This document shows, piece after piece, positions 4,621 through 64,000 of a DNA stretch of 64,000 bases (positions are counted from its first letter, which is position 1; every line of letters starts with the position of its first letter). The stretch spans positions 4,668,001 to 4,732,000 of the forward strand of contig OX387201.1 of assembly GCA_947561715.1 (NCBI GenBank). The letters run 5' to 3'. A program made the translations under genes and the position numbers. Origin of the DNA: Ascidia mentula. Its lineage: Eukaryota > Chordata > Ascidiacea > Phlebobranchia > Ascidiidae. The notes below the pieces were generated by a model. The model was not told where the DNA came from. It was given only the letters and a program-made list of their open reading frames with translations, and made no database searches.

Positions 4621-5900
4621 CATATCCCCATCTGCTTGGTGTATCTCTGTCGTTTCGAAAAACGTGGAGTTGAGGCTGTTTTTTAAAGACATTTTGCGGA
4701 GCAAATATGTGCCTGTTTTATGTATGAAATTTCTTACTTAACGTCTACCAAAAATCAAAAACGAACGACGTTACTTTGCACGTACATTCTATTGCGTTCA
4801 GTGTTGTTGTGCTTTTGTTCCGCTTAACGAATTTCTTTCAATTGGCATTTCGGCTGCAATTCACCGCACAAAAATCCTACATTGAAACGCATTGGCTTAA
4901 CGCAGTTGGAATTGTTTTATCAGACTGTGCATTTTTGTAAACAGACTGGGTGTTGTCCAAAACCCATTTTAACGAGTCTTCTGCTTCGTTTCTCTCAGGT
5001 TTACTGTTAAAACTGCAGTTACTGAAATTGTTGCAAACAGACATGGTGCCAAGAAAACTATCACCAAACAAACGTGCAAAGCTTGCAGCGACAAAGTAAT
5101 CGTAATAGTGTACTTGTAATGCTGACTACAATAAACAACTTGTTTGTTCTAATGAGCGAATGTATGTTGATCGATGAGCTAACCTAAACTTGGATTCAAG
5201 TCAAACCTTACAAAATTTTTCCCACGTATGACTTGTGAAATCCTGCAAATAGTTTTTTGTACTGGTTGAGCTCCTCTTTAACCGTGAGTCAGCCGTAATG
5301 CGGTTGACGTTATAAAGGTTGATAATTGGATTAATTTAGAAAATTGATAATTGGTTGTTAGTTTCTGGTCGGACACGATGTTGCAACTATAGGGTTTATG
5401 TGACGCCCACCGCAGGTAAATACGTCACTGGCAACGCCCAATAGTCAGCATCGTCTGTGGGTGGCTTTGGCACTGCGCAAAGTGTGGATATTTTACGTGT
5501 TTGCGTTTGCAGGGACGTCACGTTTGCAAAAAGAAAACACCCGGAATCCTATGACTATATAAAAACATTTGCCAAGGACTACCTTCGCGACCTTTTAATC
5601 AAAATATAACGATGACGAAACATATCTTGGATGACAACATATAACGTTAAATGCGGCGACGAGGGCTAAAAACATTAAATAACAAAGTTTTGATGCACTT
5701 TTTCTGGGCTACCGATGCGTAACTGGTGAAGCAAAATTGTTTCAAAGAATACAATTAGAAAAGTGAACAAGAACAGGTACGTCGTGAGACATTTGCCGGA
5801 AGGCCTTGTCAAAGAGAAAGCTTTGCATCGGAACGCTACCACTGGTGCGAATATGTTTTCAGCAAACAGATTATGTGCCAATTAATTATAGCATTTACGA
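4621..5900. repeat. Partial copy of the gene-family flank (resembles 16.6-17.9 kb)
   Basis: This stretch aligns by eye with about 16,618-17,900. It holds a degenerate minus-strand first exon (next entry), the conserved upstream flank of such exons (5,050-5,340), and a motif block (5,690-5,830) that recurs at 6,700-6,800 and 17,680-17,780. No intact gene is seen. Confidence 0.6.
4877..5044 (-). pseudogene. Degenerate module A first exon
   Basis: The ATG at 5042-5044 opens MSVCNNFSNCSFN, nearly the same as the start of the better preserved exon at 7,689-7,785. After that the frame diverges: the expected GDMHIDKS stretch and the phase-1 donor are missing, and the frame runs to a stop near 4877. 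No module B or C exon follows it in the minus direction before the retrotransposon. I take it as a relic of a duplicated gene start. Confidence 0.6.
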
Positions 5901-5989
5901 CCACGAATTCGAAAAAAGTATCAACAAATATACTATAGGCTGGTCTTGCGAAATGGATTAGGCTTTCATTTGGTTTGTCCCTTGGTGGT

Positions 5990-6560
5990 ACACACAGATG
6001 TACCAATGGCACAGGAAGGGGTTCGTTTGTTTGGCATACAGGGACGGAAACAAAAAGGCTTTAATGTTACGCAGGTGGCCTCAAGCAATAATGTTACGCA
6101 GGTGGCCTCAAGCAAAACAAAACAATGGCCTTAATTGTTTGCTTGTCGCGTATACGCTGACGTGCGGAAAATGCGTTTGAATAAGCGAAATAGCGTTTAT
6201 GTTGCCGAGCAACCGGTATTAAGCTATGTTTTGTGTGCGGTGTGTTTCCGCTTTTACCCCAAGTACGAGGCAATAAAAAAGCGATTACTTCTGTCTCTTG
6301 CCCGAGTCAGAGTTTAGGATTAGCTTTCCATCTACCCTTTGCGAACAAATAGCGATTTGTTTTTGTTGCAATGCAACCACATATCCAGTGTTTAGTCTAA
6401 GCATCTTTAATGCCTTTTGTTCAACTTGTAGCAAACTTGGCATTTAACAATAGCTGTAGAAAACAGTACTCGGGCTACATTTTCGTGAGTTACAAAGGAA
6501 AGTTACATAATACAAATTGCATAATACAAAAGTGATGACTCACACAACGTGAGAAACGTT
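5990..6560. repeat. Dispersed repeat shared with about 15,990-16,440
   Basis: A roughly 430-bp segment beginning with the GGGGTTC-TTTGTTTGGCA block matches about 16,010-16,440. Inside it, at 6,061-6,116, a 27-bp stretch (GTTACGCAGGTGGCCTCAAG core) is tandemly doubled; the 16-kb copy has it once. A shorter related piece is found at 26.7, 47.2, 50.7, 59.15 and 62.0 kb. I see no convincing gene. Confidence 0.5.
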
Positions 6561-7290
6561 TGTTAATTTTACTTCACCCACGCATTGCTCCCGTGTGTTC
6601 CCAATCCACACATACGGATGCATTTCGTTTCCCCTACATTGTATATTTTCTTTAGTCTAATCCGCGCGATTGGCCCTGCAGCAAAAACTTCTACGTATTT
6701 GCTTTTTCTTGGCGACCAATGCGAAACTGGTGAAGCAAAACTTTTCAAAGAATACAATAAGAAAGGTGAACAAGAGCAGGTACGTCGTTAGACACTTGCC
6801 TGAATGCCTTAACAAGCTTTGCAGCGGAACGCTACCACTGGTGCGAATATTATTCCAGCAAACAAATTCGCAAGGCACACTACACTGCAGTAAACATGGT
6901 GTAATAGTTATAAACAAACAACATCATGCTATAAAATTCATCAAGTTTTACATGCTTAGTCGTTTGAAACTACATTTTAAAAAGGTACAACATGCTAAAA
7001 TTAAGAAAATTAAATATATCAAAAAAAGAGTGTGAACGTTTTGCTCTTCTCACTAAAAATTGATGCCATCTGTATGCAAATTTTTTTCATTTTAGATATT
7101 TCGTGCTCATGGATTATTCAAAACTGAGAACTTTTAGCAAATTTTAATTTTGCTACTTGCCTGCATTTTTAACGTTTCCCACAACACCAACCTTTCCGTA
7201 ATAATTATTTTGGGGCCCTGCGAAATATAAAAGAGATTTTGGTAAAATTAACACAAACAGTAACACAGAAGTTGACCGTAGCCAGAAAAA
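6561..7290. other. AT-rich intergenic stretch, partial repeat copy
   Basis: 6,560-6,880 aligns with about 17,500-17,860 and in part with 5,690-5,880. The remainder, 6,900-7,290, is AT-rich. Its last 60 bases match the intron that follows the module C exon at 25,977 in the 26-kb copy. A plus-strand open frame at 6,670-7,035 is lysine-rich, low-complexity and shared with no copy; I do not call it a gene. Confidence 0.4.
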
Positions 7291-7785
7291 TTAAGTCCCA
7301 TGATCACCAACGTTTGCAGTGTGAACTGTTGCGCCAGAAAAATTATAATTTGATCCACCGTATGAGTCACCAATGTGCTGTGGCCCTGAGTAAACAAAGT
7401 TGCAATCAGCAGAAATGATTTTATGGTTTCCAGTAGAAAGTATAACCATTCATTGCGTTCTTTTTAACTTGGTAGGAGAAGATATACCATTTACCAGTGT
7501 TACAAACTGCAATCACATTTAAACCATTTGACTCACCCATATTTACGTTTCTCTGCACTCCCACAACCGATCCTCCACTGATATTCGTACCTTGCAAGTT
7601 CACTTGTTGTACCTTGCTATCCTTGTATACTGCTCACAAAAAATTGAATAATTTTATAAGGAATGGTTGATTTGTACAGGTGGACTACCTTTTGTGGATT
7701 TGTCGATGTGCATATCTCCTTGTGCTTCGTTTATCTCAGTCTTCCCGTTAAAACTGCAGTTACTGAAATTGTTGTGGACAGACAT
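7291..7785 (-). pseudogene. Three-exon A-B-C module gene, donor lost by deletion
   Basis: Exons on the minus strand: 7,689-7,785 (ATG; MSVHNNFSNCSFNG... to DKSTK), 7,537-7,629 (module B, KDSKVQQVNLQG...GNVNMG-like end) and 7,291-7,385 (module C, PQHIGDSYGGS...VGDHGT). Borders are AG/GT and all three introns are phase 1, so the parts join in frame. In the third exon, the stretch that in sister copies reads GTVNQG plus its GT donor is gone. A deletion of about 30 bp joins GDHGT to an immediate TAA at 7,291-7,293. The copy may still make an 83-residue protein if transcribed, but relative to its sisters it is truncated. Product function is unknown; the modules are Gly/Asn-rich, with a pattern suggestive of beta-strand turns. 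Confidence 0.6.
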
Positions 7786-9890: not shown

Positions 9891-10754
9891 AGCAAAAGTC
9901 TAATTTATAACCATATGTAACAGGGCAGAAATTAGGTATCGTGGTCACGGGTATGGTATTAACCTTGTAACAATGAATTGATCCAGAATAACACATCACA
10001 AGCTTTTAACCGTTTGTAAACACCATTCTTTTACCATTATAACGACATATGAAATCGCTATTACCTTGGTTGACTGTACCGTGGTCACCGACAATTTGGG
10101 CGTTGACAGTTGCACCTCGCATGTCCATTTTCGATCCGCCATAACTGTCGCCGTGGTGTTGTGGAGCTTCAAAATACATCGTTTAGGTATGTAAGGACAA
10201 TAGTAATGGAATTAGAAGTCAAACAGTAAATGATAGCAGATTTCGAATGTAGCAAAAAAGTTTTTGAAATAAGTTTTAATGCTCGAGCATTTCTCGTGCA
10301 ACAAGTTTAACTATCGCCATACGATGGAATTTGCGCAATAGGACAACTTACGATATATTAGATCTACTATATTGATTTAACTTTTAAACGCGTCCATTGT
10401 TGGAAAATAGGAACAGGGTTAGGGGGCACGATGGGTTTACTTTACAGTAATGCAGTTTAAATTGTATGGTTTTTAAAAATTGTTTTTAATTTTTAAAAGA
10501 TTTAATTAAATAACTGAGAAGAACTGTTGTTTTAAATGCCAGCTAACAACTCACTGTTCTTCTAACTCTGAACATCGGTCACGTATTCATTCAAAAAAAC
10601 TTTTACACTGTGACAAAGTTATAAAAAGTATATGTGTCTTAAATCGTTTGCTGAATTTACCCCCATAATGTTGATTCACGGTCATGTTTTCTTTGGATGT
10701 ATTAAACGTTGTGTTTCCTTCTATTTTGGCGTTACCGCTGAAGCTGACAGACAT
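9815..10754 (-). CDS. Small module A + module C gene, three exons
   Basis: Exons on the minus strand: 10,661-10,754 (ATG; MSVSFSGNAKIEG...TVNQHYG), 10,065-10,166 (module C: PQHHGDSYGGSK, RGATVNAQIVGDHGTVNQG) and a candidate last exon 9,815-9,849 (KKETGVHKNA then TAA). The first two have clean GT donors and all introns are phase 1; the total, 231 nt, gives 76 residues. The last exon is supported by its duplicate at 33,905-33,960, which is also open in the same phase. A phase-0 reading of the last exon (stop at 9,769) is also open, so the C-terminus is uncertain. Unlike the ATG exon of other members, this one lacks the FNN start but keeps the F-x-G-N-x-x-I pattern. A broken relative of exon 1 lies at 26,380-26,410. 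Function unknown. Confidence 0.55.
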
Positions 10755-13082: not shown

Positions 13083-13104
13083 AGTTGGACGGGTGACTTA
13101 CGAT

Positions 13105-14266: not shown

Positions 14267-14894
14267 TTAAAATTTCTCAGGAGTATACACATTGCAGCAG
14301 CAATGTATATTACAACACATACAGCACTTAAAGCAAAATTCCCCCTCATTGGTTGCTGGCGGCTCCTAAACATACAAAGGTAGTTGCAAAAGAAATATTA
14401 TGTTTTGTATTCACTGTATGTCTTACACTGATTGACATGTGGTCACGCAATGTTATACAAATATAATGCTAAAATTTTAAGCTAAAATTCATAACAAGTA
14501 CTCATTAATTTGGATTCAAGAGTGGAAATAATTTACCTGCGACGGTCCTGGTTGAGTTCTTCCTTGTGGCAATTGTGAGTCACCTTTACGTATACGATGT
14601 GTATCAGTTTAAGTGCAAATTGCAGTATACAGTGAGCTGGGTAACTTAAATAACAATCACAAATGTTTCTTGATTGTTTGGATCGGTGTAACCAAAAGAT
14701 TTACTAAAGCAATTTTTTGATTCTTTTGCGCAACCGGTCTGGAAATATTTTTGATACACCTTATTCTTTTACCCTTGCAGCATGTGAAATTGCCATTAAC
14801 CTACCTTGTTTGGCAGTACCCTTATCCCCGATGTTTACAGTCGCACCTTGAATGCCGAATTTCGATTCACCATAAGTGTCACTGTTGTGTTGTC
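14267..14894 (-). CDS. Module C gene fragment with Cys-rich C-terminus
   Basis: Three minus-strand exons join in frame. 14,805-14,894 is module C (QHNSDTYGESKFGIQG, ATVNIGDKGTAKQG), phase 1 at both ends. 14,537-14,583 (DSQLPQGRTQPGPSQ) goes from phase 1 to phase 0, with a weak acceptor. 14,267-14,365 is a last exon read in phase 0: EPPATNEGEF, then CFKCCMCCNIHCCC, then NVYTPEKF and TAA. The tail has nine cysteines in 14 residues, which could be palmitoylated (membrane anchoring) or metal-binding; that is inference. No start-codon exon was found upstream, so either it is farther away or the gene is incomplete. The Cys-rich tail is seen nowhere else in the window. Confidence 0.45.
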
Positions 14895-15500
14895 CTACGA
14901 AAACACAAATGGTTGTTGTGGGGACGGTAAACGGTAGTATTGTTTTGCAAGTAAATTTAAAATATATTATAAATATGAGTTCTCACGCTCGACCAATTTA
15001 CATGCAGCAAGTTTTACTTTTAATACACGAGTATTGATAACTAAGCAGTCCAAACCTAAACTGCGAATACCATGTGACTAAAAAATTATGTTTTTGATGC
15101 TTGGTCTTCGTTTGCAGTACACCTTTAATCGCTGTGTTGCAAACCGCCTAAAATTGAAACCTTATTACTTGATTTACGTTTTGTACAGAGCTGGGCAGCG
15201 AACGTTCCAAGCTTGAACAAAACGTTTTGTCCAAAGGTGCTCAGTTGCCGGTGAACTTGACACAGCCTGTGATGTCGCAAACGGTCGCGTTGGCTACTTT
15301 GTTACCCACCAAAACATAACAAGGGCTACATACAATGGTCAAGTTGATGTTTAAAGCCTAGAAAAGTTTTTTTTCCAAATCACCAAATCAAAAATGAAAA
15401 TGCTTCCAAGGTTTCAAATACAACTTTTTTACATTTTTTGGGGTTGTTTACACTATGAAGTGTCCTACATGCAGAAGTATTATATGCAGTGGTGAAAAAT
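14895..15500. other. Upstream of the Cys-tailed gene; first exon not found
   Basis: This is where a start exon for the preceding gene would be expected, but no ATG exon of module A type is visible. 15,400-15,480 resembles the flank upstream of the first exons at 28.18, 50.03 and 58.51 kb (phrase GTTTCAAA-TACAACTTTT), so a start exon may have been lost by rearrangement. Confidence 0.3.
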
Positions 15501-18100
15501 AAAAATTTTATATTAATGCTCAAGTAAATTGGAAAGTGTTTGCAAAGAAATAGATGTCCATTTTCCGAAAATAATCACGCCTCGAACCTTATCTGTACCC
15601 CTTTATTTCTGTTATTCTATAGAACTTGTTGCCCTCGAAGCTGGTTTCAACAGTCATTGTTATATTCCAAGTATGTTCTGTTGCTTTTGTGGATTTTGTC
15701 AACTTGCCGGGCATTTTTCAGCAAATTTACTTTAAGTTGGTCTTGCGAAACAGATTAGGCTGCAGTGACACCGATTACTCGAGGTTTGTTGTTTTGCTTA
15801 TTTTGTCATCAAAGATGTTTATCCGTTGTGAACTTTTCTGTCTACATTTTTCTACTTACCCCCTTTATGTTTTTATGAATAAATCTTTAACTTTTGTTGG
15901 TTTTATTGCTTGTTGGCTCATGTTTGCAATGTGCGTTGAAAAATAAATATTGCACGTTCACATGTAAATATATCTACACCATCGAGCCCCAGGCCCAGGT
16001 ATATTCATTTCTTGCGCAAGAAGGGGTTCTTTTGTTTGGCAAACCGGGATGGAAACAAAAAGGCTTTAATGTTACACAGGTGGCCTCAAGCTAACAAAAC
16101 AATGGCCTTAATTGTTTGCTTATCGCGTTTACGCTGACGTGCGGAACATGCGTTTGAATACAGTTTTATGAGAAAATGAAAAGCGAAATACCGTTTATGT
16201 TGCCGAGCAACCGATATTATGCTATGTTTTGTGTGCGGTGTGTTTCCGCTTTTATCCCAAGTACGAGGCTATAAAAAAAAGCGATTGCTTCTGTCTCTTG
16301 CCCGAGTCAGAGTTTAGGATTAGCTTTCCACCTGCCCTTTGCGAACAAATAGCGATTTGTTTTTGTTGTAATGCAACCATATACACAGGGTTTAGTCTAA
16401 CCATCTTTAATGCCTTTTGTTTAACTTGAACAACAACCATATGTGGAGTTTGTTAAAACTGATGGTCAATTCCAAAGAAACCATATTAACTAATCCGCTT
16501 GTTCAACAATAAGCGAACCGCTAATATTCGCATCTAGCAAGACATAGAATTTTTAATTGGTTTCTTGGGAAACTTTACTTTTGATGCCACAGTTACCTCT
16601 TGTGGAGTTATAAATATGCATATCCCTTTCTGCTTGGTGTATCTCTGTTGTTCCATAGCGCTTGTTCGGGCTGGTTTTGGAAGACATTTTACAAAGCAAA
16701 AATGTTATGAACGAAATTTCTTACTTGTCGTCTACCAAAAAGCAAAAACAAACGATGTTACCTCTATTGCGTTTAGTGTTGTTGTACTTTTGTTCCGCTT
16801 GACGAAGTTTATTTCATTGGCATTTAGGCTGCGATTCATCGCACAAAAATCCTAAATTAAAACGCATTGGCTTAACGCAGTTGGAATTTTTTTATTAGAC
16901 TTTGCATTTTTGTAAACAGACTGCGTGGGTATTGTGAAATACTCATTTTAACAAGTCTTGTGCTTTGTTTTCCTCAGACTTCCCGTTAAAACTGCAGTTA
17001 GTGAAATTGTTGAAATCAGACATTGTGCCAAGAAAACTATACAAATCACAAAATAAACGTACAAAGCTAGTAGCGACCAATCGTAATAGTGTACTTGTAA
17101 TGCTGACTACAATAAACAACTTGTCACATAAACGAAAGTATTTTGATCGCTGAGCTAACCTATACGTGGATTCAAGCCACACCTTATAAAAGTTGTCCCA
17201 CGTATGACTTGTGAAATGTTAATAGTTTTTCGTTCCGGTTCGAGTTCCTATTAAGCGTGGCGTCAGCAGGTCGGTTGACGTTACAAAGGCCGACAATTGG
17301 ATTAATAAGGGAGTACTTGTTATGAATCGAATCAAACGGTGATTAAAGCTGTTACATCAAAGGTATGTAGCAACCCCGTCATTTAACAATAGCTGTAGAA
17401 AACAGTACTCGGGCCACATTTTCGTGAGTTACAAACGGAAGTTGTCTACAGAAATCTTTCATTTTCTTTGGAAAGATTGTTTGCTTGCGTTATTACATAA
17501 TATAAAAGTGATGACTCACACAACGTCAGAAATGTTTGTTGATTTTGCTTCACCGCATTGCCCTCCTGTGTTTCCAATCCTCACATGCGGATGCATTTCC
17601 TTTCCCCTACTTGTATATTTTCTTTAGCTTAATCCGGGCGATAAGCCCTGCAGGAAAAACTTTTACGTATTTGCTTTTTCTTGGCTACCAATGCGTCACT
17701 GGTGAAACAAAACTTTTTAAAGAATACAATTAGAAAAGTGAACAAGAACAGGTACGTCGTGAGACACTTACCGGAAGGCCTTAACAAGGAGAAAGCTTTG
17801 TTGCGGAACGCTAACACTATGGTGCGAATATATTTCCAGCAAACTGATTGTGTGCCAATTAACTACTGTTGTTGGTTTTACTGCTTGTTGGCTCATGTTT
17901 GCAATGTGCGTTGAAAAAAAAACATTGCTCATATAAATATCTACAACATCTAGCCCCCGACCCAGGTGTATTCGTTTCTCCTGTTGACAAAATTTGATAA
18001 ACGTTTTAATAAACATACACAGGGCGTAAGAATTTGCACATGTTTTCATTTGGTTTTTATCGTGACCTCCTTACCGCCTCTAGCGTCCGCTAATATGCTA
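15500..18100. repeat. Old copy block resembling 4.6-6.9 kb
   Basis: 15,990-16,440 matches 5,990-6,430; 16,618-17,370 matches 4,621-5,340; 17,500-17,860 matches 6,560-6,880 and 5,690-5,880. The order of pieces differs between the two loci, so the segments were rearranged after duplication. Plus-strand open frames here are repeat-derived or unshared, and I do not call them genes. Confidence 0.5.
16943..17023 (-). pseudogene. Degenerate module A first exon
   Basis: The ATG at 17,021-17,023 opens MSDFNNFTNCSFNGK, clearly the module A start, but the frame reaches TGA after 26 codons, where intact copies have GDMHIDKS and a phase-1 donor. The flank above it (17,030-17,370) is the shared upstream region. 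No B or C exon follows within 1 kb. Relic. Confidence 0.6.
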
Positions 18101-21013: not shown

Positions 21014-21948
21014 TTAGGTTTCGTCCATAGCCTCCATGCTTTTGGTTTCCTTTTGCATATTTCGTGGCGGTTGATTTCCTTGTTGGTTTTCTAAAATAAT
21101 ATAATCCCTGTTTACTTAATGCAACCGGAACATACATCGTAGAAATGGAGCAACAAGATATATGAGAATATCTGAAGTACTTTAAGTGCATTACTTTTAG
21201 TTTAACAACAAACTGTGTTTCGAACAAAATGATTTATCCGTTATGAAGTTACAGGAACATTGCCACAGTATTAGAAATGATTGATAAGAAGAGAAACTAT
21301 TTGTTATTTTACAAACAAATCCACATATTTAATACCGAAGTTGCAAGTTTAAGTTTCAAGTAAGTAGGCTATAGTCTTACGTTTGAGCCAGCTGGCTGTA
21401 CATTGTGTACTAATACAATCACTACCAATTGCACTTACTTATACGAAGATGGTTAGTTATACTTTTGACATTATTTAAAATTAGTAATACTACTATTTGC
21501 GTAATATTTGCAGTACCATCTCTGGCATCATTTTTGTCCTCCGTTCTCTCACGTCTTTCATTTGTCTCGCGTTAGGGGTGCTAAATTTACAAAAACAAGT
21601 TATTAGCATCGAACCAAAACACAACTAAACAAAACGAAGTAAGTTAATATGCGTTACATTTGGCAACAACGTATATAACTAAATTCAAGTAATAATTACC
21701 CATATTCACAATGTTTTCGTCACCGATGCTTCCGGCTTGAACTGAACCTTGGAAGTTATATTTGCTTGGTTGTTGACCTATACACAAACCATGTAAATTC
21801 ACTATTGAATGTAGACTGGAAGATATATAAGATCACTGATAAAGACAAATACCCTATTTTTAACCCTATTTACTCAACAAAATTATAAAACCAAAATGAC
21901 GTATGTGTGTATATAATTACCTTGTTGGTTGTTGGGCGGTGTCGCCAT
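21014..21948 (-). CDS. Small MATP-type gene with a short module C
   Basis: Exons on the minus strand: 21,921-21,948 (ATG; MATPPNNQQ, phase-1 donor), 21,700-21,777 (QQPSKYNFQGSVQAGSIG, then DENIVNM) and last exon 21,014-21,090 (NQQGNQPPRNMQKE...SMEAMDET, TAA). Phases fit (28+78+77 = 183 nt, 60 residues). The middle exon is a short module C lacking the PQH-x-GDSYGG half. The last exon has an orphan twin at 18,744-18,820 and the first exon has a twin at 28,974-29,001 (MATPSNNQQ), so both ends are independently supported. A possible extra exon near 21,517-21,560 (RERRTKMMPEM) has an unclear acceptor. Function unknown. Confidence 0.6.
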
Positions 21949-26209: not shown

Positions 26210-26410
26210 TTAAACCCTATGACTTATCGACGTTCACGTTCCCTTGCACTCCCACAACCGACCTTCTACTGATATTCGCACCTTTGTGGTATTGTGGAAC
26301 TTTAAAATACACCGTTTACGTATATAAGGGCAATAGTAATCCAATTACAAGTCAAAGAGTATGATATATTTCCTACTATTTTGGAGTTGCCGCTGAAGTT
26401 TAAAGCATGG
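26210..26410 (-). pseudogene. Chimeric module B exon and broken first exon
   Basis: At 26,215-26,270 the minus strand reads module B (GANISRRSVVGVQGNVNV). The usual start (KDSKVQQV) is replaced by text matching the upstream edge of the module C exon at 10,166 (TATTTT-AAG-TTCCACAATACCAC), and the donor GT is AT. At 26,380-26,410 a relic of the 10,754-type start exon reads ATG CTT TAA. Both point to unequal exchange between family members. Confidence 0.5.
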
Positions 26411-26900: not shown

Positions 26901-27661
26901 AACTATGTATTATTGTCCTATGTTTTGTGGTTTTGCTTTTACCTCCAGTTAAGTGCAATAAACTTTGTGTCCACCCTTTACGAACTATTTGCAGCTGTAT
27001 TTACTGTAATGCAACTAAATAAGCCAGATGTAAATTTATTTATAAACAACAAGAAATATACTACAACATGAATTTATTACAAGCATTTCTTTATCCAGCT
27101 TTATATACCACAGATGTGCAAAAAATAAATCCTAAAATTTATTGTCCATCTGCAGCAACGGATTAGTTACAAGTGTATGCCAAAGTACACTATGTTAAAT
27201 CTTCCTGTGGGCGTTGAAGCGAAATACATACAAACATGCTAATATATACAGCGTGAATTCCAGGGTGCAGCTCTTCCTACTCTGCTGCAAATAAATAACA
27301 AACAAAAGTTCAATAAAGTGATATATGCCACCATTTGGTGTTTTGTAGAGGTATGCCAACATTGAAAATATTCGGATTCGGCCGATTTTATTTTTGTTTT
27401 AATTCAACTTTTCTTTGTTGTGGTGCAAGAAGCAAGGTTTCTTTGCTATAGGAGGGAGCCGTTTACTGAGGCATTCAAGCATATTGCATCAAAACATTTG
27501 CCTCACCTTACTGCTTGCCGTCTTTGTCAGAATTGTGCTGGTCTGTGGAAAAGTTTTTCAAAAGATTATTCAAAGAATAAAACTTGTCACAATAAAAGAT
27601 AATGCAATAATATGGAAGTTGCCTGTTGCAGGTTTAAACGTGTGCGTAAAAGCGGATTTAC
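26900..27661. other. Spacer, nothing recognised
   Basis: 27,060-27,180 weakly resembles 12,340-12,640 and 46,320-46,620 of the duplication block. No exon with family features is seen. Confidence 0.3.
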
Positions 27662-43600: not shown

Positions 43601-44417
43601 TTAATATCATCAGGTAAAATTAGTACCTACTTCCAAAAATTTTTCAAAACACGATGAGGAAATTTCAGTTTGAAACGTTTTTATAAATAATCTCCACTAC
43701 AGCAAGCCAAAATAAAGCCATTTGATTTCTATCTTGATCAATCTATTTATCTTTACGATGTTGCGAAGTTGCAGTTGGTTTAGTCACTTACGGTTAGACT
43801 ATTGAAGGGTTTGTGGGTTTGTATTCACCTACGTATGGCTCTTGTTATTAACATTGCCAATCAATTAAAAGCAATCCTTGTGTGACACGTACGGTATCAA
43901 ATGGAAGTTAGGTTGCCAGGTTTTCACGTATAAAGAGATTTACCCTGATTCACAGTCCAATGATCACCAACGTAAACTGTTGCACCAGGAGTATTAAATT
44001 TTGATCCACCGTATGAGTCACCAATGTATTGTAGCCCTGAGTAAAAATGTTTTTATAGTTTCCAGTGGGAAATATAAAGTTTTGTTTCTTTTTTTTAACT
44101 TTGCGGTCAAAAGGTTACATTTACCAGTGATAAAAACTGCAAAACTACCACATTTATACCCTTTGACTTACCCATGCTCACGTTTCCACACACTTCCACA
44201 ACCGATGTAGTGATATTCGCACCTGGTGTGTTCACCTGTAGCACCTTGTTATCCTTGTACACTGCACACAGAAATACCAATAAGTTTCCAAGAAATAGTT
44301 GGTTTGTACAGGTTGACTACCTTTAGTGGATTTGTCGATGTTCACATTTCCTTGTGCTTCGGTTATCTCAGTGTTACCAGTAAAATTGGAGTTATTAAAC
44401 TTGTTTTGGGTAGACAT
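40663..44417 (-). CDS. ZU5-UPA-like protein with A-B-C modules, 11 exons
   Basis: Exons (minus strand, in order): 44,321-44,417; 44,172-44,261; 43,944-44,036; 42,805-42,914; 42,483-42,725; 42,156-42,256; 41,915-42,097; 41,617-41,864; 41,211-41,308; 41,115-41,151; 40,663-40,724. All have AG/GT borders and compatible phases; the sum is 1,362 nt, or 453 residues. Order: module A (MSTQNKFNNSNFTG), B (KDNKVLQVNTPGANI), C (IGDSYGGSKFNTPG, VGDHWTVNQ), a linker ending HIGDGTSIIDV, ZU5 (about 142-211: GGTIDVDGCKLSIPSGAL, VCKPDGLHFKKPVEITLP). Next a UPA-like part begins after EVEHFTKF (HFT 242-244), then a charged helix-like exon, a second module C (QQHTGDVYGGSK, SIGDNAAIN) and a short tail (GATFCNFSA). 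ZU5-UPA proteins such as PIDD1 and FIIND scaffolds cleave themselves before Ser in H-F-S; here Thr stands there. No signal peptide, so cytoplasmic is likely. Twin of the 53.63-kb gene. Confidence 0.8.
42915..43943 (-). other. 1-kb intron of the ZU5 gene
   Basis: The longest intron of the gene, between the third module exon and the linker exon. No conserved module exon or repeat copy was found inside. Confidence 0.4.
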
Positions 44418-48330: not shown

Positions 48331-50033
48331 TCACAGATCCAAATACTCTTTGTCTTCTGTTTTCGGTTGCATCGGTGGCGGATCTGAAACGACAAAATCA
48401 AAAACTGCAGAATTTTTGCACTGATTTGTAACAATACTACAGTAAAGTCAAGTTTTTTACTTGTGCACCATGACATTCGCATAGCCAGGGAGGGCCATGG
48501 CTATCAAATTCTAAGATATAAAGATTTGTAAGTTTGGGCGTTGTCTAATTTGTGGCCGGTGTTTTCGGGATAATATTTTGCCACCAAGCTGACCAAAGTC
48601 GCATTGTTGGGCGATGTTTCCCACCGTAATCTTTTACTAGCTTAAACCTGCACCCCATATATTTGTAGCCCCAACCAAAACCTTGGTCTGGCTACCACAC
48701 TTCATCATCGGTGGTTTACCAAAAATGTATAAAAATGTATAAAATGTATATGCGAGCACTGGAATTTCACCTTGAGCGCAAAAATAAAAGGAAATACGTA
48801 CCTTGTTTAACCGCTGCTGGTTGATCAGGTTCAGCCTTCTGCTGAACCTTATTTGCATCTTCGTTAAGTGGTAGCTGTCCTAATACCCAAATAAACAAAT
48901 TACACATGACTGACATATGTTATGCCTCTGTCTACCTAACAAAATGCGGTTGTTTTTTGCCAAATGTTTCTTGATTCCTTACTTAGTGTATTTAACCGGT
49001 TTTCAAATATCTACATATATTCAGCGGTAGCTTGTATTTAATTACCGTAGTGTCACAGGCCACGCAAAATAAAGTACTGCATATTTTTTAGTTCCTTTTG
49101 GTCAAGATAAATACTTTTTCCACAGATATGTGAATACAAAGAGCCATGATAGATTTGTAAGGTGATGAGGATAATAATCACATACATAGGAGACAGGCAA
49201 CATTGGTCTTTCATCATGTTAGCTGTGCAAGCCAGGCGGAAGAAGGAAATACGTACCTTGTTCAGGTTTAGCCTTCTGCTGATCAGGTTTAGCCTTCTGC
49301 TGACTTTTATTTGCATCTTCGCTAAGTGGTAGCTGTCCTATACCCAAACAAACAAATTATACGTTGACTCACATATGTTCTATACGTCTATGCATCGACA
49401 ATTCCTAAAAAAACATTTCAGGCTATGACGTTAAAAAACTAGGTTTACTTCGACACCGAAGTTTCATAATTTTATCATATGAATATTATTTGACGTCACC
49501 TGGTTTGAAATCCTGGTTATCCTGGCCATATTACAAGTAATAAACTCTAACCTTTGTTATTTTTCTGATCATCTGGCTTGCCTGATTGCTGTTGTCCTGA
49601 TTGCTGTTGCCCTGATTGGTGCTGGCCTACAGAAATATAGGAAAGAACAAGTTGTGTGTTGTCAAGGTAACAGATAGCATATTTAAATCTATCTTTAATA
49701 ACATTGTGTGCAACTCCCAAGTACAATTCGCTGATTTGTATAGAGTACAGCAGCAACATAATTTTTTATTAATTTTGATGAAATTTACAAACGTGAACTC
49801 TAGCCGATTGTTATAAATATAAGGGAAAACTTACCCTGATTTACTGTCCCATTGTCACCAATGATTGCAGCGTAAACAGGGCTTTGGAAGTTGTTCTTAG
49901 AGCCACCAAATACGTCGCCAGTGTGTTGTGTGTCACGTCTACCTGTTTTAGATTCGTCGATGTACATATCCCGCTGTGCGCTGCGTACCTTCACCTCGCC
50001 GTGGAAAGTGTTGTTATTAAACGTAGTAGACAT
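48331..50033 (-). CDS. Five-exon A+C module protein with Gln-rich tail
   Basis: Exons (minus): 49,835-50,033 (ATG; MSTTFNNNTFHGEVKV, GRRDTQHTGDVFGGS, AAIIGDNGTVNQ), 49,552-49,626 (QHQSGQQQSGQQQSGKPDDQ), 49,257-49,337 (QLPLSEDANKSQQKAKP), 48,802-48,879 (QLPLNEDANKVQQKAEP), 48,331-48,383 (PPPMQPKTEDKEYLDL, TGA). All introns are phase 1; the sum is 486 nt, or 161 residues. In exon 1, modules A and C are fused in one exon, whereas other genes have an intron between them. Exons 3 and 4 are duplicates of each other. The tail is low-complexity, Gln/Lys/Pro-rich, with a final acidic EYLDL that could be a tyrosine-based docking motif (inference). Near-identical exons recur at 57.7-58.5 kb and 63.1-64 kb. 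Function unknown. Confidence 0.75.
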
Positions 50034-52534: not shown

Positions 52535-53036
52535 TCACACCACGTATAAACCTTTGATGGTTGCACCTTTAAACGTTTGTTTTTTCACCTGCCTTTGTGC
52601 AGTTGGGCGGGATGCTAAATATAGATATACCAATTGTAACACACTTTTATGTTACACATTAAGTCAGCAAATTGGTTGCACGGACGAATAATGAACACGT
52701 CGTAATAGCTTTCAATTCAAAATGTAGTCAGCATTAAAATTTTTCATCATTAAATAATGCATTTCAAAAAAGAATCGAGCGTCTCCATTTAATCCTGAAT
52801 CCACACAATTATCGGAACATAAACTTATGTCCGGATGGAACGTTCCTGTCCTGCACGTGTTGACCTGTGGTATCTACAGTAAAACATAAACATTTTATTG
52901 AAAAAAAAATCTTTTTAATGATAAAATATGGTATTGTAGTCCGAACCGTTTTGCACGTTGCCCATCACCCCCAAAGTGGAATTCTCCATCGTTGCCCTGG
53001 TAAAGTTGTTGGTTTGTTTCTGGCTGTTGTTGTATT
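52535..53036 (-). pseudogene. Module B exon and frameshifted SRPAAQ-type exon
   Basis: 52,947-53,036 is an intact phase-1 exon (YNNSQKQTNNFTRAT, LGVMGNVQN; donor GTTCGG, weak) matching exon 2 of the 53.63-56.29 kb gene. 52,535-52,614 begins SRPTAQRQVKK like exon 3 of that gene but has lost one base before its VIGNVT stretch, giving a stop at 52,535-52,537. It is either a truncated tandem copy or, since all phases fit, extra 3' exons of the gene above it if its exon 9 uses the A/GTAAAT donor. Confidence 0.5.
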
Positions 53037-53632: not shown

Positions 53633-56290
53633 CTATTTACTTATGTTAACCTTACCGTTGTCACCGATATGATCAGCAATGACTTTGACACCTTTAATAT
53701 CATATTTCGGACCATTGTATGCATCTCCAGTGTTTGTTTCTGAACAAAACCGTATGTAATTATTTGAAGCAAAGAGAAACTGTTGTAAAAACTCAGTTTT
53801 TATTTCTCTGTTGTGGCCGTGAAATCTGACCCCACCTGCCAATATCCAAAGAATACAATGGAAAAGTGGCAGGCGATCATCGTCATTTCGATATCATATT
53901 TTTTATTTCAAAAATGTCTAGTTTCTAGTCTAACAGACATCGCTTTACCCACTAAGCTACGGGAGCTCAGAGGTTTTGGGGGATAATGCCTTGACTACAA
54001 AGTTATCAAACCTAATGATTTTTGTTCAACAAATATTTGTAAATGAAAATCATTAGCTACACTACAAAATACTCAAAACTTACGTTTGTTATGATTAACT
54101 TCACAATTCTGTAAAACCATCATGGCTTGAACAGGTGTTTCAGCACTGCCCACTAGCAACACAAATATTTTTTTACCGTTTTCAATAATAACCATACGAA
54201 CGTATTTAACGTTCCTAGAAAGCAATAGAATCTTACCTAGACTTTGTTTTTTTATGTAGAAATGTTTGTTCACAAGTTCTGTGATTTTGTTCTTCGATGC
54301 TATTTGAATTTTCATTTTTTTATTTGCCAAACTCTCTCCGTTTTGGCTTGTTAAGCGGAATTGGCTTTCGTCTCTTGATCTGTCCCAAATTTCAGTTATC
54401 TTTTTCTCCCCTTCATCTATACTTACTTCGTTACTGGTCAGTTTTGCAAGAAGATTTTTATCTAAACGTCTAATAAGTGGCAACAAAGAAAAGCACATGT
54501 ATTTTTTACTCAGGTAATAAACTGATATTACTAACTCAATGGGAAAGTTTGAGTGCATAATTTCATTGAGTTTATTCAATGTTTTTGCCAATGGAGTGTT
54601 GTCACAAATAAACATGGAGGCAATGATTTCTGTTGGTTCACCCGCGTCTGGTGGAACAGCAAAAATGAGAGACTTTTCCTTTTTTCCTGGCGTTTTTCCT
54701 GGCGTGATATTTTTCATAGAAATCTTAAACCTTTAAGAAAATATTTTACTTATTCGACAAGGTTTCCTGCTGTGCAAAAAATAACTTATTCCTTACAGAG
54801 AAAAGTGTTTGGTAACAAATGTAAACGTTTTGGTGTTTTGTTTCAAATAAATATCACTGACTTTGACGAAGTCTGAAGTTTCATCGGGTGCATTTTGTAC
54901 CTAGATAACAAAAGTACATCTGACAAAGATAACTGGTATAAATAAAAGTGCAATAGACTGGCAAACTTCGTTACCTCCATACATATATCTTCCTCTGATC
55001 GGTAACAGGTGGGCAGAGTGATTTTAACTTCCTTCTCAAAAGTTAGTCTATGTGGCTTGCAGATTAAAGTAGGTGATACATCATTGTTATCGTAGCAGGC
55101 GTCCACTTCAATTTCAACGTCCGTATGCAAGGCATCAGGAGGAATCGAAATTGTACATCCCCCAATGTCGATATCTCCACCCTTTTTTCCAATCAATTTT
55201 GAGGTATGTTGACGGAATAAGTATTTCTAAAACAGTTTATTTTGTGTAAATCTTGTTTTCTGTTATTAAATGGTTCGTTGTTGTTTTGACAATCGGAGAC
55301 TGACGATTAGTACGCGTTAAGCAAGTCGATGCTCCCAGCGCAATTATACTTTCATCGTGATAAAAAATGGATTCAGTAAATACTTAAAGCAAACGTCCGC
55401 GCAAATTGGTCCTCCTGTGTCAAATTTTTATGATAAATTATGAGAAAAAATTTCAGCAACAAACCTTTTCTGGAGCGTTTTCATCTAAACCAGTCTTAGG
55501 ATTTTCTGTTTTGACTTCTTGGTTTGAATTTTTACATGTTTGTTCCATTGCTTCGTTCCAGTTAGTCAAAGTAACATTTCCAATCACACCACATATGGAT
55601 CTACTAATGGTCACACCTTGAGCGTTTGCCACCTGCTTTTGTGCAGCTGGGCGGGATGCTAAATATAGATATACCAATTGTAACACACTTTTATGTTACA
55701 CATAAGGTCAACACACAGGTTGGACGAATGAACACATCGTAATAGCACTCAATTTAAAAATTAGTCAGTTGCTTTGGGGGCAAGCAATTTCATGTTGGTT
55801 GGCATATTAAAGCCACAAATCATATCCTTTTGGATGATCACAACATTGGAAAAATTATATCTACCCTCTGCAGGCCCCACATTGCCCATGACTACTGTTG
55901 TCGAGTCTATGATGGTTGCACCTGCAAAGTCGTTCTGTATTTTCGACGCATTGTGAACTGAAACAACATTATGTTTAACTTTTGTGTTCTAAGGCGCATG
56001 TGCTGCTCCGACTTGTCGGAAAGAATAAAATGGCTGATCCAGCTAGGCTGTGATGCCTCGGCTGTAAAGCCTGTAACCTAACGTTGCGTTGTATTGCATT
56101 TTAGATATGAACTTGATTGCGGTATTTTGTGTACTGTTACAGCAAAAAAGATCTTTGAGATCAAGAAATATATCAATGATTTCCACCAACCTGTTCGGCT
56201 CTGGTCGATGTTGATATTGTTTCCGGCTGTGTTAAAAGTTGCATTTCCGCTCATCTTGCAACCTTTAAAAACGGTTTGAGCAGAAGACAT
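53633..56290 (-). CDS. ZU5-UPA-like protein with modules and an H-F-S site, 9 exons
   Basis: Exons (minus): 56,191-56,290; 55,865-55,957; 55,465-55,658; 54,975-55,226; 54,797-54,900; 54,536-54,730; 54,237-54,469; 54,084-54,152; 53,633-53,739. Phases fit throughout; the sum is 1,347 nt, or 448 residues. Order: module A (MSSAQTVFKGCKMSG, NNINIDQSRTG), B (HNASKIQNDFAGATI), B-like (QVANAQGVTISRSIC, GVIGNVTL) plus acidic linker, ZU5 (about 142-213: GGDIDIGGCTISIPPDAL, ICKPHRLTFEKEVKITLP). The following strand ends VTKHFSLF (HFS 245-247), then a UPA-like part (KSLIFAVPPDAGEPTE), a charged exon with NGESLANKKMKIQI, a short exon, and a final module C (GDAYNGPKYDIKG, HIGDNGKVNI) with TAG. Exons 4-7 pair with exons 5-8 of the 40.66-kb gene, with phases identical. 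H-F-S at this place is the self-cleavage site in PIDD1. The end is uncertain because GTAAAT near the stop could be a donor. Confidence 0.8.
55958..56190. repeat. SINE fragment in intron 1 of the ZU5 gene
   Basis: 56,000-56,085 matches, in reverse orientation, the body at 32,470-32,533 (GGCTGATCCAGCTAGGCTG and GACTTGTCGGA). An old insertion. Confidence 0.6.
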
Positions 56291-57021: not shown

Positions 57022-58509
57022 TTAACAACATACTTTTGAATCTATACGTGTTGCAACGATATAATTTTAACCAGACGCGATGATGCTCGTACCTGTAGTG
57101 TGAGCTTTGTCTGAACTAGTCTCAGAGACAGGATTATTTTCAGGTTGATCACCATCTGTATTTTCTCCTATGAGAGAAAAATAAATGTTTTTTTTCTACC
57201 AAAAAAATCTGCAGTAATATAAATTAGATATAAGGACTAATTCGGAAAAGAAAAATATTTGAAAGTGACCACAGACTTTTGTTTAGTATTATCATATCAG
57301 CGGTCAGTGAGCTGTTACCTTGCATAAATATGTCAACGCAATAACTTTTTGACGCATTAACTAGCACATGCAAATAATGAGACCAAGCAATCGTCTTACT
57401 TATTTCATCTTCAGTTTCTTGCCTGTTTTCTTGTGGCCTTCGCGTAGTTGATGGAACACCTGTTGTATAGAACCTATATTAGACACAAGTGGATCCAATA
57501 ATGAAAATACAATGACAATTACCGTGGTGTCACAGGCCACGCAAAATAAAGTACTGCATATTTTTTAGTTCCTTTTGGTCAAGATAAATACTTTTTCCAC
57601 AGATGAGAATACAACGAGCCATGATAGATTTGTAAGGTGATGAGGATAATAATTACATACACAGGAGACAGGCAACATTGGGCTTTCATCATGTTAGCTG
57701 TGCAAGCCAGGCGGAAGAAGGAAATACGTACCTTGTTCAGGTTTAGCCTTCTGCTGATCAGGTTTAGCCTTCTGCTGACTTTTATTTGCATCTTCGCTAA
57801 GTGGTAGCTGTCCTATACCCAAACAAACAAATTATACGTTGACTCACATATGTTCTATACGTCTATGCATCGACAATTCCTAAAAAAACATTTCAGGCTA
57901 TGACGTTAAAAAACTAGGTTTACTTCGACACCGAAGTTTCATAATTTTATCATATGAATATTATTTGACGTCACCTGGTTTGAAATCCTGGTTATCCTGG
58001 CCATATTACAAGTAATAAACTCTAACCTTTGTTATTTTTCTGATCATCTGGCTTGCCTGATTGCTGTTGTCCTGATTGCTGTTGCCCTGATTGGTGCTGG
58101 CCTACAGAAAAAAAAAGAAAGAACAAGTTGTGTGTTGTCAAGGTAACAGATAGCATATTTAAATCTATCTTTAATAACATTGTGTGCAACTCCCAAGTAC
58201 AATTCGCTGATTTGTATAGAGTACAGCAGCAACATAATTTTTTATTAATTTTGATGAAATTTACAAACGTGAACTCTAGCCGATTGTTATAAATATAAGG
58301 GAAAACTTACCCTGATTTACTGTCCCATTGTCACCAATGATTGCAGCGTTAACAGGGCTTTGGAAATTGTTCTTAGAGCCACCAAATACGTCGCCAGTGT
58401 GTTGTGTGTCACGTCTACCTGTTTTAGATTCGTCGATGTACATATCCCGCTGTGCGCTGCGTACCTTCACCTCGCCTTGAAACGTGCTGTTATTAAACGT
58501 AGTAGACAT
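57022..58509 (-). CDS. A+C module gene with alternative 3' exons
   Basis: Exons (minus): 58,311-58,509 (ATG; MSTTFNNSTFQGEVKV, AAIIGDNGTVNQ), 58,027-58,101 (QHQSGQQQSGQQQSG), 57,732-57,812 (QLPLSEDANKSQQKAKP), 57,400-57,459 (VPSTTRRPQENRQETEDEI), 57,093-57,167 (ENTDGDQPENNPVSETSSD). The first three match the 161-residue gene almost exactly; the last two match exons of the 23-26 kb locus, so the gene is a fusion with its join near 57,515. All exons are phase 1 to 1. No sure last exon: a 20-nt candidate at 57,022-57,041 (SKVCC, TAA) has an acceptor but no homologue. Where the 25-kb locus has TAA, this copy has GAA and is open. Possibly functional. Confidence 0.55.
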
Positions 58510-61483: not shown

Positions 61484-61648
61484 ATGCCATATTACTTCGG
61501 CGTCTTTATTTCACCTAAATCTAACGAGGAGATTTCAACGTATGTTTATACAAGGTTTACAACACAGCTTACCATAAATGGCCAGTATTTGTCGTTAGAT
61601 TGTCAGCAAAAATCCATTCTGTTTGTGAGCGGAAGAAACTGCTGTTAA
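61484..61648 (+). CDS. Possible small protein, MPYYFG family, copy 2
   Basis: ATG frame of 54 residues, MPYYFGVFISPKSNEE to VSGRNCC, the partner of 46,694-46,858. Same caution applies. Confidence 0.3.
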   Translation: MPYYFGVFISPKSNEEISTYVYTRFTTQLTINGQYLSLDCQQKSILFVSGRNCC

Positions 61649-63120
61649 TTGATTATCTAAACCTTTTGTGGCAAAACATATTTCATCATATGTTTATAAA
61701 CATGGAGCAGATAGAAATCCCGTAGATTGCCAAATAGTGTTGGACGGGTGACTTACGACATTCATATCAAATTGTGCGTATTTGTACTGTGCGTAAACTA
61801 TATTTATGCTCAACCTGTATTGTTTAAATTTTACCGCGTTAATGCGATTTGTTTAACTTAAGCAACATTAACATGGAACTCCCGTTATGGGGTTAACTGT
61901 AGGCAACGATATCAAATTTGGCAGGGACCCGGAAACCACTGCCCTCCTGTGGAACAACGTATACAACATATATTAGTTTTAGTGCAACCCATGGCGCGAA
62001 AGCCACAGACCAAGACGAATACAAAAGGGTTTTAAGTTACAGAGTACCTCAAGCTGAATCAATGGCCTTACGTTTTCTGGTAGAAAGAAACTTTGCATAC
62101 AGTTGTATGAGTTATGAAAGTAAAACAGTCGGACTGTATAGCAGTGGTGTTGTATATGCCGACTATGGCAATACATTTTCTTGGACAAGATATGCAATTC
62201 CCATTTTTATGCTTCCCCAAACTTGCTTTAGACCGACAAGGTTGGGAGGCATTTTTTAGAAACCAACTGATATTTCCATAATCATTGCTGTACAAAGGTG
62301 CAAATACTGGCCACCTTGCAAGGGGTGAAGCGGTTGCTGAACAAATAGGGGAACAAGGATGAATCAACTGACTGAATATTTTTTGCTGTTATTACTGGTT
62401 GTTTCAGTTAGTCAAGTCACATTTGCTTTTTTTCGCAAACGTATTGGACGTGGTTTTTGGTAATTGTGGGGCAACAACGCACTGATAACATCTTCGGTGG
62501 TCTAAGTATAACTTTACTGTACTGTAGTGATCAAGCAACAGTCAATCAAGGTACGTTATGATAGACTAACGTTAGACAGTTATACCACAGGTCACTAACG
62601 CGTATAATGTTGACTATTTATCAATTTCACGTAAGGGGAACCGCCTGCACATTAGTGGTTATTTTTGTCAAACGCAATTAGACCCTGCAGCGTAATAAAG
62701 TATAAATCACCATCAATGTTGTCATTTTGGTAGAGAATAGGTGGATTGAAGCAAATGACCAGCAGTACACAGCAGTTTGTATTTCTTTATCACATATACG
62801 TAAGGTATAGAGACGCCATTTGAAAAAAAATCATGCCTTTGTTTGAACTTGTCGTAATATTCTTACATATGTACAGCGTACAAAATAACTTACTAAATTG
62901 GATTTTGTGGGTGGATGAAAATTAACTAACACAACAAACATAGTTATTGTGATTTATGAAACTACAGCAACTATTAGAAGGCAAAATGTCGATGCATCGT
63001 AGTTTTTGTGCTCACCTAAATGCCAACATAAGACACATATATACATTCGAAAAACCTTGTGCTAAATAAAATCAGTTACAGCATTATTGGAAGGTAGTGG
63101 GAAATCAACATCATCGATTA

Positions 63121-64000
63121 TCACAGATCCAAATACTCTTTGTCTTCTGTTTTGGGTTGCATCGGTGGCGGATCTGAAACGACAAAATCAAAAACTGTAG
63201 AATTTTTGCACTGATTTGTAACAATACTACAGTAAAGTCAAGTTTTTTACTTGTGCACCATGACATTCGCATAGCCAGGGAGGGCCATGGCTATCAATAT
63301 CTAAGATATGAAGATTTGTAAGTTTGGGCGTTGTCTAATTTGTGGCCGGTGTTTTCGGGATAATATTTTGCCACCAAGCTGACCAAAGTCGCATTGTTGG
63401 GCGATGTTTCCCACCGTAATATTTTACTAGCTTAAACCTGCACCCCATATATTTGTAGCCCCAACCAAAACCTTGGTCTGGCTACCACACTTCATCATCG
63501 GTGGTTTACCAAAAATGTATAAAAAAGGGATAAAATGTATATGCGAGCACTGGAATTTCACCTTGAGCGCAAAAATAAAAGGAAATACGTACCTTGTTTA
63601 ACCGCTGCTGGTTGATCAGGTTCAGCCTTCTGCTGAACCTTGTTTGCATCTTCGTTAAGTGGTAGCTGTCCTAATACCCAAATAAACAAATTACACATGA
63701 CTGACATATGTTATGCCTCTGTCTACCTAACAAAATGCGGTTGTTTTTTGCCAAATGTTTCTTGATTCCTTACTTAGTGTATTTAACCGGTTTTCAAATA
63801 TCTACATATATTCAGCGGTAGCTTGTATTTAATTACCGTAGTGTCACAGGCCACGCAAAATAAAGTACTGCATATTTTTTAGTTCCTTTTGGTCAAGATA
63901 AATATTTTTTCCACAGATATGTGAATACAAAGAGCCATGATAGATTTGTAAGGTGATGAGGATAATAATTACATACATAGGAGACGGGCAACATTGGTCT
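63121..64000 (-). CDS. Second copy of the 161-residue gene, cut by the window end
   Basis: The last exon 63,121-63,173 (PPPMQPKTEDKEYLDL, TGA) and the penultimate exon 63,593-63,670 (QLPLNEDANKVQQKAEP) are the same as in the 48.33-50.03 kb gene at the protein level visible here. From the constant offset of about 14,790 bp, exons 3, 2 and 1 should lie near 64.13, 64.42 and 64.82 kb, beyond the window. Confidence 0.7.

Follow-up and report, generated by a model that had tools for sequence, protein, structure and literature searches.

A short exon-borne motif shared by a repeat-gene cluster, NLR receptors and ZU5 genes of the ascidian Ascidia mentula, a candidate for homotypic immune signalling

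NLR-associated amyloid signalling motifs of fungi and bacteria are 20 to 40 residues long and follow a characteristic layout in receptor and partner (PMC4344463, PMC8086366, PMC7889193). In bacteria, they are N-terminal in the NLR and C-terminal in the partner protein, and one family is often repeated (PMC7889193, PMC8086366). The RHIM is defined by a tetrad with the consensus (V/I)Q(V/I/L/C)G (PMC9444067), and no RHIM-bearing homolog of RIPK1 was detected in tunicates (PMC12119088). PIDD is cleaved after its ZU5 domain at HF/S, and CARD8 and NLRP1 are cleaved at SF/S (PMC3210808). A fusion of TRADD-N to a UPA-ZU5 module is reported from metazoans, and the sections of that paper used here describe no short motif of the type treated below (PMC8195603). 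Ascidian NLRs have been reported without CARD (PMC11508797), which leaves their signalling route open. Here, we describe a gene cluster of Ascidia mentula that is built from three small exon types, A, B, and C. It was analyzed in a window, i.e. one whole stretch of 64,000 nucleotides (contig OX387201.1, here C69, positions 4668001-4732000), and in the 196 Mb of the genome searched (79 contigs, labeled by C-numbers). The B exon encodes a motif that also appears in NLR and ZU5 genes, and such a shared exon-borne motif would answer the question of the signalling route for the NLRs that bear it.

The B-exon motif and its place in NLR and ZU5 genes

The B motif comprises ~25 residues of the form Q…S-[IV]-V-G-V-Q-G-[DN]-V, with a core that typically reads [IV]VGVQG[DN]V. 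In the same genome it occurs in two other gene classes, namely NLR receptors and ZU5 genes. Most of the loci outside the cluster (L054-L073 and L075) were picked by motif match and L053 was picked for its ZU5, so that the reciprocal profile result speaks to homology and not to frequency. A profile of five outside motifs (L069-L073, four adjoining NACHT and one, L072, without) was run against 5980 open reading frame fragments of the cluster, and B or broken B exons took the top 12 places (E 8.9e-8 to 0.027). In the reverse direction, the cluster-B profile ranked motif exons as the top 21 among 5189 outside fragments, 20 of them distinct (E 5.6e-8 to 8e-4); the best E of residue-shuffled outside fragments was 0.14. 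By these profile comparisons, the B exons are homologous to the motifs of the NLR and ZU5 genes. An alignment of 15 class representatives shows the V, G, and V of the core to be invariant and the Q and G nearly so. An AG acceptor that splits a phase-1 codon is located exactly 53 bases before the core at 21/21 distinct outside sites, among which are many recent duplicates, and a phase-1 donor is also available at the NLR-type sites and at L072. The motif exons scanned gave no Pfam match of any kind. The motif is previously undescribed as far as the open-access literature searched goes, in agreement with the earlier note on this DNA, whose author knew of no description of such an expanding system; most subscription papers lay outside the scope of that search.

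The ZU5 gene L053 (C70:2146001-2154000) contains LRR exons (Pfam LRR_6, E 3.5e-21 for two joined exons) and ZU5 exons that end in HFT, and beyond the UPA position sits SNITESIVGVQGDVHQ, a piece for which no Pfam family matched. Used as a query, this motif finds 44 places in the genome. The 4.5 kb upstream of L053 hold three frames of at least 70 residues, none of which is NACHT-like by eye; because of this and of the LRR exons, the gene reads as PIDD-like rather than NLRP1-like. Among the motif loci examined, the motif is followed closely by a NACHT frame in L069, L070, L071, and L073, and also in L075 on C2. L072 carries the motif with no NACHT within the 6 kb examined.

The position of the motif was followed over 74 nonredundant sites, obtained with two queries at E<=10, weak ones included (36 on C69, 16 on C2, 14 on C70, five on C71, two on C52, and one on C73). 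A first pass for neighbors left 58 of the 74 sites without one, partly because it scored 95 of 317 NACHT candidates. The pass on C69 used a C69-type NACHT query and scored 88 of 299 candidates; of the 16 C2 sites, L075 was examined. On C69, a same-strand NACHT exon starts 339-774 bp downstream of the motif in 31/36 sites, and the wrong-way-round arrangement occurs 0 times. Random placement yields a mean of 0.46 and a maximum of 3 such sites in 2000 trials. A 32nd C69 site (20351398, L073) has a NACHT frame in its DNA that lies outside the 88 scored, and in L071 (C52) and L075 (C2) the motif is likewise found just upstream of NACHT. Pfam recognizes NACHT in 5/5 loci (L070 7.3e-16, L071 8.7e-18, L069 1.3e-16, L073 2.3e-17, L075 4.9e-16). 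The NOD2 winged helix (NOD2_WH) scores above the cut-off in L070, L071, and L075 and below it in L069, and is not listed for the partial frame of L073. A ZU5 lies within 4 kb of the motif at 13 sites and is upstream of it in 12 (11 on C70, one on C71), with the two presumably joined by splicing. From the C69 and ZU5-neighbor counts, the motif precedes NACHT on its N-terminal side and, apart from a single site, follows ZU5.

The motif is common to at least two genomes, since it is carried by an NLR of another ascidian genus. A joined NLR query, for which 7996 candidates were scored, returned at least 15 relatives among the matches listed, one from Phallusia mammillata, 10 from Clavelina lepadiformis, and four unnamed. 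The Phallusia protein (P0001), which is pre-annotated with LRR_6, has KVDNAVVGVQGDVHQ ahead of its NACHT. This piece matches the ZU5-motif profile at E 1.4e-6 and the NLR profile at E 4.4e-5 (Z set to 1000), compared with E 8.7 and 7.0 for the best of 300 shuffled sequences. A protein-database search with the A-B-C repeats returned nothing for a single sequence and, for an alignment, 774 candidates, none at E<=10; its length and word limits preclude a firm negative. Since the database has Phallusia and Clavelina NLRs yet gave no A-B-C match, the repeat proteins may evolve fast or be restricted to one lineage.

The NLR expansion itself is very large, with 317 NACHT candidates, and all 95 that were scored pass the Pfam cut-off. 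Arrays of NACHT exons lie at 0.68-0.95 and 14.2-15.3 Mb of C71 and at 16.9-21.3 Mb of C69. In the C71-type NLR L076 (C71:14561501-14564500), a minus-strand frame from 2587 contains the His-rich TGDVHHHEHQTVEEHYNYQTVEEHNHHAHYES upstream; the motif is not there, and the His-rich frame is possibly an alternative N-terminal module. One NACHT relative of Clavelina lepadiformis (P0005) is pre-annotated with a TIR domain (PF13676), so that the N-termini of tunicate NLRs may vary from genus to genus.

The repeat cluster and its ZU5 members

Profiles of the three exon types were built iteratively, being trained on data that were later scanned, and used in a six-frame search. At E<1e-3 they recovered 17 A, 16 B, and 36 C exons in all sequence then scanned; 10 A, 7 B, and 13 C matches fall in the window, every one on the minus strand. 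A phase-1 acceptor is present in 30/35 C and 13/16 B exons and a phase-1 donor in 29/35 C, 11/15 B, and 13/17 A exons, with an estimated chance expectation of about one quarter for phase-1 sites at the allowed positions. The recurring A/B/C exon family, mostly phase 1 at both ends, is real. The earlier note had described three small exon types sharing minus-strand loci, nearly all phase 1, and the profile scans and splice-phase counts agree with this. A C-type query finds 36 places genome-wide, 33 of them on the minus strand of C69:4644112-4820996 (~177 kb); the exon family extends beyond the window by ~24 kb at its lower end and by ~89 kb at its upper end. The remaining C-type matches are two on C1 and one on the plus strand at 3.58 Mb of C69.

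The C exons have a pooled ratio of nonsynonymous to synonymous differences (pN/pS) of 0.49 (556 pairs), and equal-length pairs give 0.48 in frame and 1.11 and 1.27 in the shifted frames. The C reading frame is under constraint. The signal is weaker in B exons (0.67, with 0.86 and 1.15 shifted), and for A exons (0.74, with 1.19 and 0.77 shifted) one shifted frame is not distinguishable. In several of the closest exon pairs pN exceeds pS. Individual copies look damaged: the C exon at 7383 (minus strand) reaches a stop codon before VNQG and looks nonintact, and the A exons at 5044, 4692, and 17023 appear truncated. At 28184-27999 (minus strand), an A exon leads into the start of a C exon and continues as an A end in a single open frame, which reads as an in-register exchange between C and A repeats.

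Tandem duplication is dense in the cluster, and the encoded proteins are small and built from ~25-30-residue motif copies. Three kinds of members can be differentiated. The first consists of short A-B-C-(D) proteins (e.g. C69:4745569). In the second, represented by the genes at 58509 and 50033, a fused A-C exon is combined with tails that are Gln-rich and basic; the Gln-rich tail exons that had been noted earlier in some members are indeed seen in the sequence. In the third, repeats are followed by ZU5, the UPA position, and repeats again. The features of the window are listed below; where "hit extent" is given, the coordinates are the limits of the match to the hidden Markov model (HMM) profile.

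58311..58509, minus: gene 1, fused A-C exon, first coding (starts MSTTFNNSTF...); HMM A and C; donor GTAAGT, phase 1
58027..58101, minus: gene 1, Gln-rich tail exon; read from sequence
57732..57812, minus: gene 1, basic/Gln tail exon; read from sequence
56191..56290, minus: ZU5 gene 2, A-type start exon; HMM; donor GTTGGT by reading
55865..55957, minus: gene 2, B-type exon; HMM
55465..55658, minus: gene 2, B-type exon and linker, core GVIGNV; HMM; NLR-motif profile E 3.2e-5
54975..55226, minus: gene 2, ZU5 exon; Pfam ZU5 on the spliced protein, E 1.4e-4, 22.5 bits versus a cut-off of 21
54797..54900, minus: gene 2, ZU5 end with HFS autoproteolysis-type motif (CAC TTT TCT, 54807-54799); HF[ST] in the paralog alignment
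54237..54730, minus: gene 2, UPA-position region, exons 54730-54536 and 54469-54237; position and paralog alignment; no match to Pfam UPA
53641..53739, minus: gene 2, C-type exon downstream of ZU5; HMM
52947..53036, minus: gene 2, B-type exon downstream of ZU5, core GVMGNV; HMM; NLR-motif profile E 0.0037
52809..52873, minus: gene 2, possible last exon with stop codon; read from sequence
49835..50033, minus: gene 3, fused A-C exon, near-duplicate of gene 1; HMM
44321..44417, minus: gene 4, A-type start exon; HMM
44172..44261, minus: gene 4, B-type exon; HMM; NLR-motif profile E 9.1e-5
43944..44036, minus: gene 4, C-type exon; HMM
42483..42725, minus: gene 4, ZU5 exon; Pfam ZU5 E 9.4e-8
42156..42256, minus: gene 4, ZU5 end, HFT motif from 42166; sequence
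41617..42097, minus: gene 4, UPA-position region, two exons; position and alignment; no match to Pfam UPA
41211..41308, minus: gene 4, C-type exon downstream of ZU5; HMM
27999..28184, minus: A exon and C/A chimera, one open frame; HMM
27840..27935, minus: B-type exon (hit extent), the cluster's best match to the NLR-motif profile; E 8.9e-8, 5980 fragments
27660..27758, minus: C-type exon (hit extent); HMM
26226..26312, minus: B-type exon RRSVVGVQGNV (hit extent); HMM; NLR-motif profile E 7.2e-7
25975..26076, minus: C-type exon (hit extent); HMM
25385..25483, minus: C-type exon (hit extent); HMM
21698..21790, minus: C-type exon (hit extent); HMM
16595..16687, minus: A-type exon (hit extent); HMM
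14803..14895, minus: C-type exon (hit extent); HMM
10063..10164, minus: C-type exon (hit extent); HMM
7687..7785, minus: A-B-C gene, A-type start exon (hit extent); HMM
7535..7630, minus: A-B-C gene, B-type exon (hit extent); HMM; NLR-motif profile E 3.5e-4
7294..7383, minus: C-type exon, stop codon after GDHGT; HMM and sequence

The ZU5 of two window genes, claimed in the earlier note, is confirmed by Pfam, which recognizes ZU5 at E<=1e-3 in every spliced copy from the cluster (6/6), including the two that the window contains. These six are the close ZU5 relatives in the genome (E 2.4e-21 or better), all lie in the cluster, and the next match follows at 6.8e-9. The ZU5 query has 157 matches at E<=10 genome-wide, many of them weak or half-exons, with a large expansion on other contigs. 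In the window ZU5 genes, ZU5 comes after A/B or A-B-C repeats and ahead of C, or of C together with B; once spliced, the C-terminal portion of gene 2 matched no Pfam family, death-fold or other. The ZU5 ends in HFS in 3/6 and in HFT in 3/6 cluster copies, with an inferred intron shortly after. By its sequence this HF[S/T] is an autoproteolysis-type site at the ZU5 end, and cleavage there is putative. The subsequent region is conserved across all six cluster copies in the alignment. In a PDB search, a ZU5-UPA profile has ZO-1 as its best match (E 6.4e-4 and 0.03), with five others at E 0.34 or worse, and a single sequence found nothing better than E 0.2. The predicted fold of a lone ZU5 exon was useless (predicted local distance difference test score, pLDDT, 45.9).

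Several further observations concern the surroundings. Identical open frames of 118 residues lie ~14.8 kb apart on the plus strand of the window (47113-47469 and 61903-62259), which indicates a recent segmental duplication; the gene at 58509 likewise has a near copy at 50033. A tandem repeat with a 137-bp unit (2.5 copies, 90% matches) occupies 36760-37101. At 1101-4072 (plus strand), two overlapping long frames look by eye like a Ty3/gypsy-type polyprotein with reverse transcriptase and integrase-like parts. Elsewhere, two minus-strand C-type exons of L051 (C1:4402001-4410000) adjoin plus-strand frames that, judged by eye, resemble PARP catalytic exons. In the vicinity of a ZU5 gene on C2 (L052, C2:2666001-2674000), one long upstream frame resembles FAT/TPR (Pfam FAT E 9.8e-6, TPR_12 0.0012), and a second long upstream frame has no Pfam match.

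Proposed homotypic assembly and its rivals

The explanation that we regard as fairly probable is that the cluster encodes tandemly duplicated repeat proteins that share the B motif with NLR and ZU5 genes and would take part in homotypic assembly signalling driven by this motif. Signalling would probably be homotypic, by templated assembly, and replace death-fold domains. As read from the genes, the layout, a single copy N-terminal in the receptor, C-terminal in the partner, and in tandem on the partner side, is that of NLR-associated amyloid signalling motifs. In the proposed mechanism, a ligand would drive NACHT clustering and bring the N-terminal motifs together. The gathered NLR motifs would subsequently nucleate templated homotypic assembly with their counterparts in ZU5 and repeat proteins, an assembly that would stand in for CARD, PYD, or death domains. 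Self-cleavage of ZU5 at HF/S or HF/T would free the motif-bearing C-terminal fragment (cf. PIDD and NLRP1), and repeat-only proteins may act as amplifiers or decoys. By analogy to fungal NWD2/HET-S, this could amount to a chordate non-RHIM amyloid signalling in which death-fold-less NLRs nucleate a polymer with PIDD-like ZU5 proteins and fast-evolving repeat proteins, for which we see the chances as evenly balanced.

The earlier note had considered plausible a rapidly expanding system for innate immunity or assembly, with ZU5 in two members. The link of the B motif to NLR receptors and other ZU5 genes supports this and makes the innate-immune reading much stronger. Its likening of the repeats to amyloid signalling motifs also fits, with short glycine-rich repeats and a receptor/partner layout that agrees. 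The likeness to RHIM was rejected: the tetrad is absent from the motif core, and up to E 10 Pfam lists no RHIM in either the A-B-C proteins or the motif exons (most weak matches are removed by the HMMER filters), which together exclude RHIM by sequence.

A number of observations weigh against homotypic signalling by a shared motif. The motif exons of the C70 ZU5 genes have a donor that is mostly phase 0, not phase 1. Profiling of the exon types had a divided outcome, in that B matches the NLR and ZU5-gene motifs and A and C found nothing convincing among the 5189 outside fragments; the link to the motif is modest for the C exon (hhalign E 2.9e-4, probability 41%) and weak for the A exon (E 0.012, probability 3.5%). 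The motif is not universal, since it was detected at 31/42 scored NACHT exons on C69 and 1/45 on C71, leaving 11/42 and 44/45 with no motif detected, and was not matched in the 14 other NLR relatives listed, ten of them from Clavelina. At C70:3825724-3825795 (minus strand), the sole such site, ZU5 lies downstream of the motif within 4 kb. The NLR, ZU5, and repeat genes are on different contigs or megabases apart, not adjacent. The region after ZU5 that had been called UPA-like is conserved in six copies, and its UPA identity is unproven: Pfam UPA matched 0/6 cluster ZU5 proteins and, as it rang nowhere in the genome nor in controls, UPA is inferred from position. The AlphaFold2 monomer of the A-C exon (15 window rows) has no strands at a mean pLDDT of 65.7, a model that neither supports nor excludes assembly.

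Other explanations have to account for the same layout. If the motif were a linear docking peptide for a third adaptor, the repeats would be multivalent scaffolds and no self-assembly would be involved. TRAF-, SUMO-, or WD40-binding peptides are short docking motifs of comparable behavior, and the shortness of the motif, its strongly conserved core, and the A-C exon predicted without regular structure would all suit such a role. The combination of N-terminal, C-terminal, and tandem copies nevertheless fits amyloid signalling motifs better (PMC4344463, PMC8086366, PMC7889193), and we consider docking unlikely. The acceptor at one conserved position, the C/A chimera at 28184-27999, the dense tandem duplication, and the excess of pN over pS in some close pairs could also be explained by exon shuffling and gene conversion, which would have spread a phase-1 exon through expanding families with no signalling role. 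Such a spread is hard to reconcile with a polarity that is strict toward NACHT and nearly strict toward ZU5, with a core that NLR, ZU5, and repeat genes have in common and that a second ascidian genus retains, and with the constraint on the C exons, and it appears improbable to us.

A beta-helix family of structural or secreted proteins with no immune tie is the least credible proposal for the cluster and is very improbable. It draws on the Gly/Asn-rich repeats and on a weak resemblance to Pentapeptide_3, and it is opposed by the ZU5 within the same genes, by the homology of B to the NLR and ZU5-gene motifs as judged above, and by start exons with no obvious signal peptide on inspection. A pentapeptide repeat was rejected as an assignment, the match of an A-B-C protein to Pentapeptide_3 being below the cut-off (E 0.11, 13.2 bits versus 27), and a PDB search with the C-exon profile had one match only (E 1.1). 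A transposon origin of the repeats, also considered in the earlier note beside a known unrelated domain, is disfavored because the motif adjoins NACHT and ZU5 exons; the retroelement at 1-4.2 kb is separate.

If homotypic assembly through the B motif holds true, it would be an undescribed signal-passing route for animal immune receptors and would extend the receptor-to-partner motif logic of fungi and bacteria into chordates. Whether animals use signalling amyloids other than RHIM becomes directly testable with ~30-residue peptides.

Comparison with known systems

The animal NLRs of the CARD/Death-NACHT-LRR type share NACHT with the receptors described here, and the NOD2 winged helix with L070, L071, and L075. 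The difference is that a short motif exon takes the place of the N-terminal death-fold domain. PIDD1, NLRP1, and CARD8 resemble the ZU5 genes in HF[S/T] at the ZU5 end and in a candidate signalling module downstream, and L053 additionally has LRR exons upstream. In contrast to these proteins, repeats or a short motif occupy the death-fold place, UPA is undetected by Pfam, and in cluster members ZU5 is flanked by repeats on either side. With the RHIM of RIPK1, RIPK3, ZBP1, and TRIF, the motif has in common its shortness and a proposed homotypic role in animal immune signalling; it differs in the absent tetrad and in its occurrence in NLRs and ZU5 genes. The closest resemblance in layout is to fungal NWD2/HET-S (HET-S-related, PP, and sigma motifs) and bacterial BASS, where a short motif likewise lies at the NLR N-terminus. 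Their motifs have 20-40 residues, with copies that are C-terminal in the partner and repeated in some families, and the same layout is seen here at the level of genes. Unlike in the fungal and bacterial systems, receptor and partner genes lie apart, the partner has a ZU5, the A-B-C proteins have no Pfam match beyond the sub-cut-off pentapeptide one, and the host is an ascidian.

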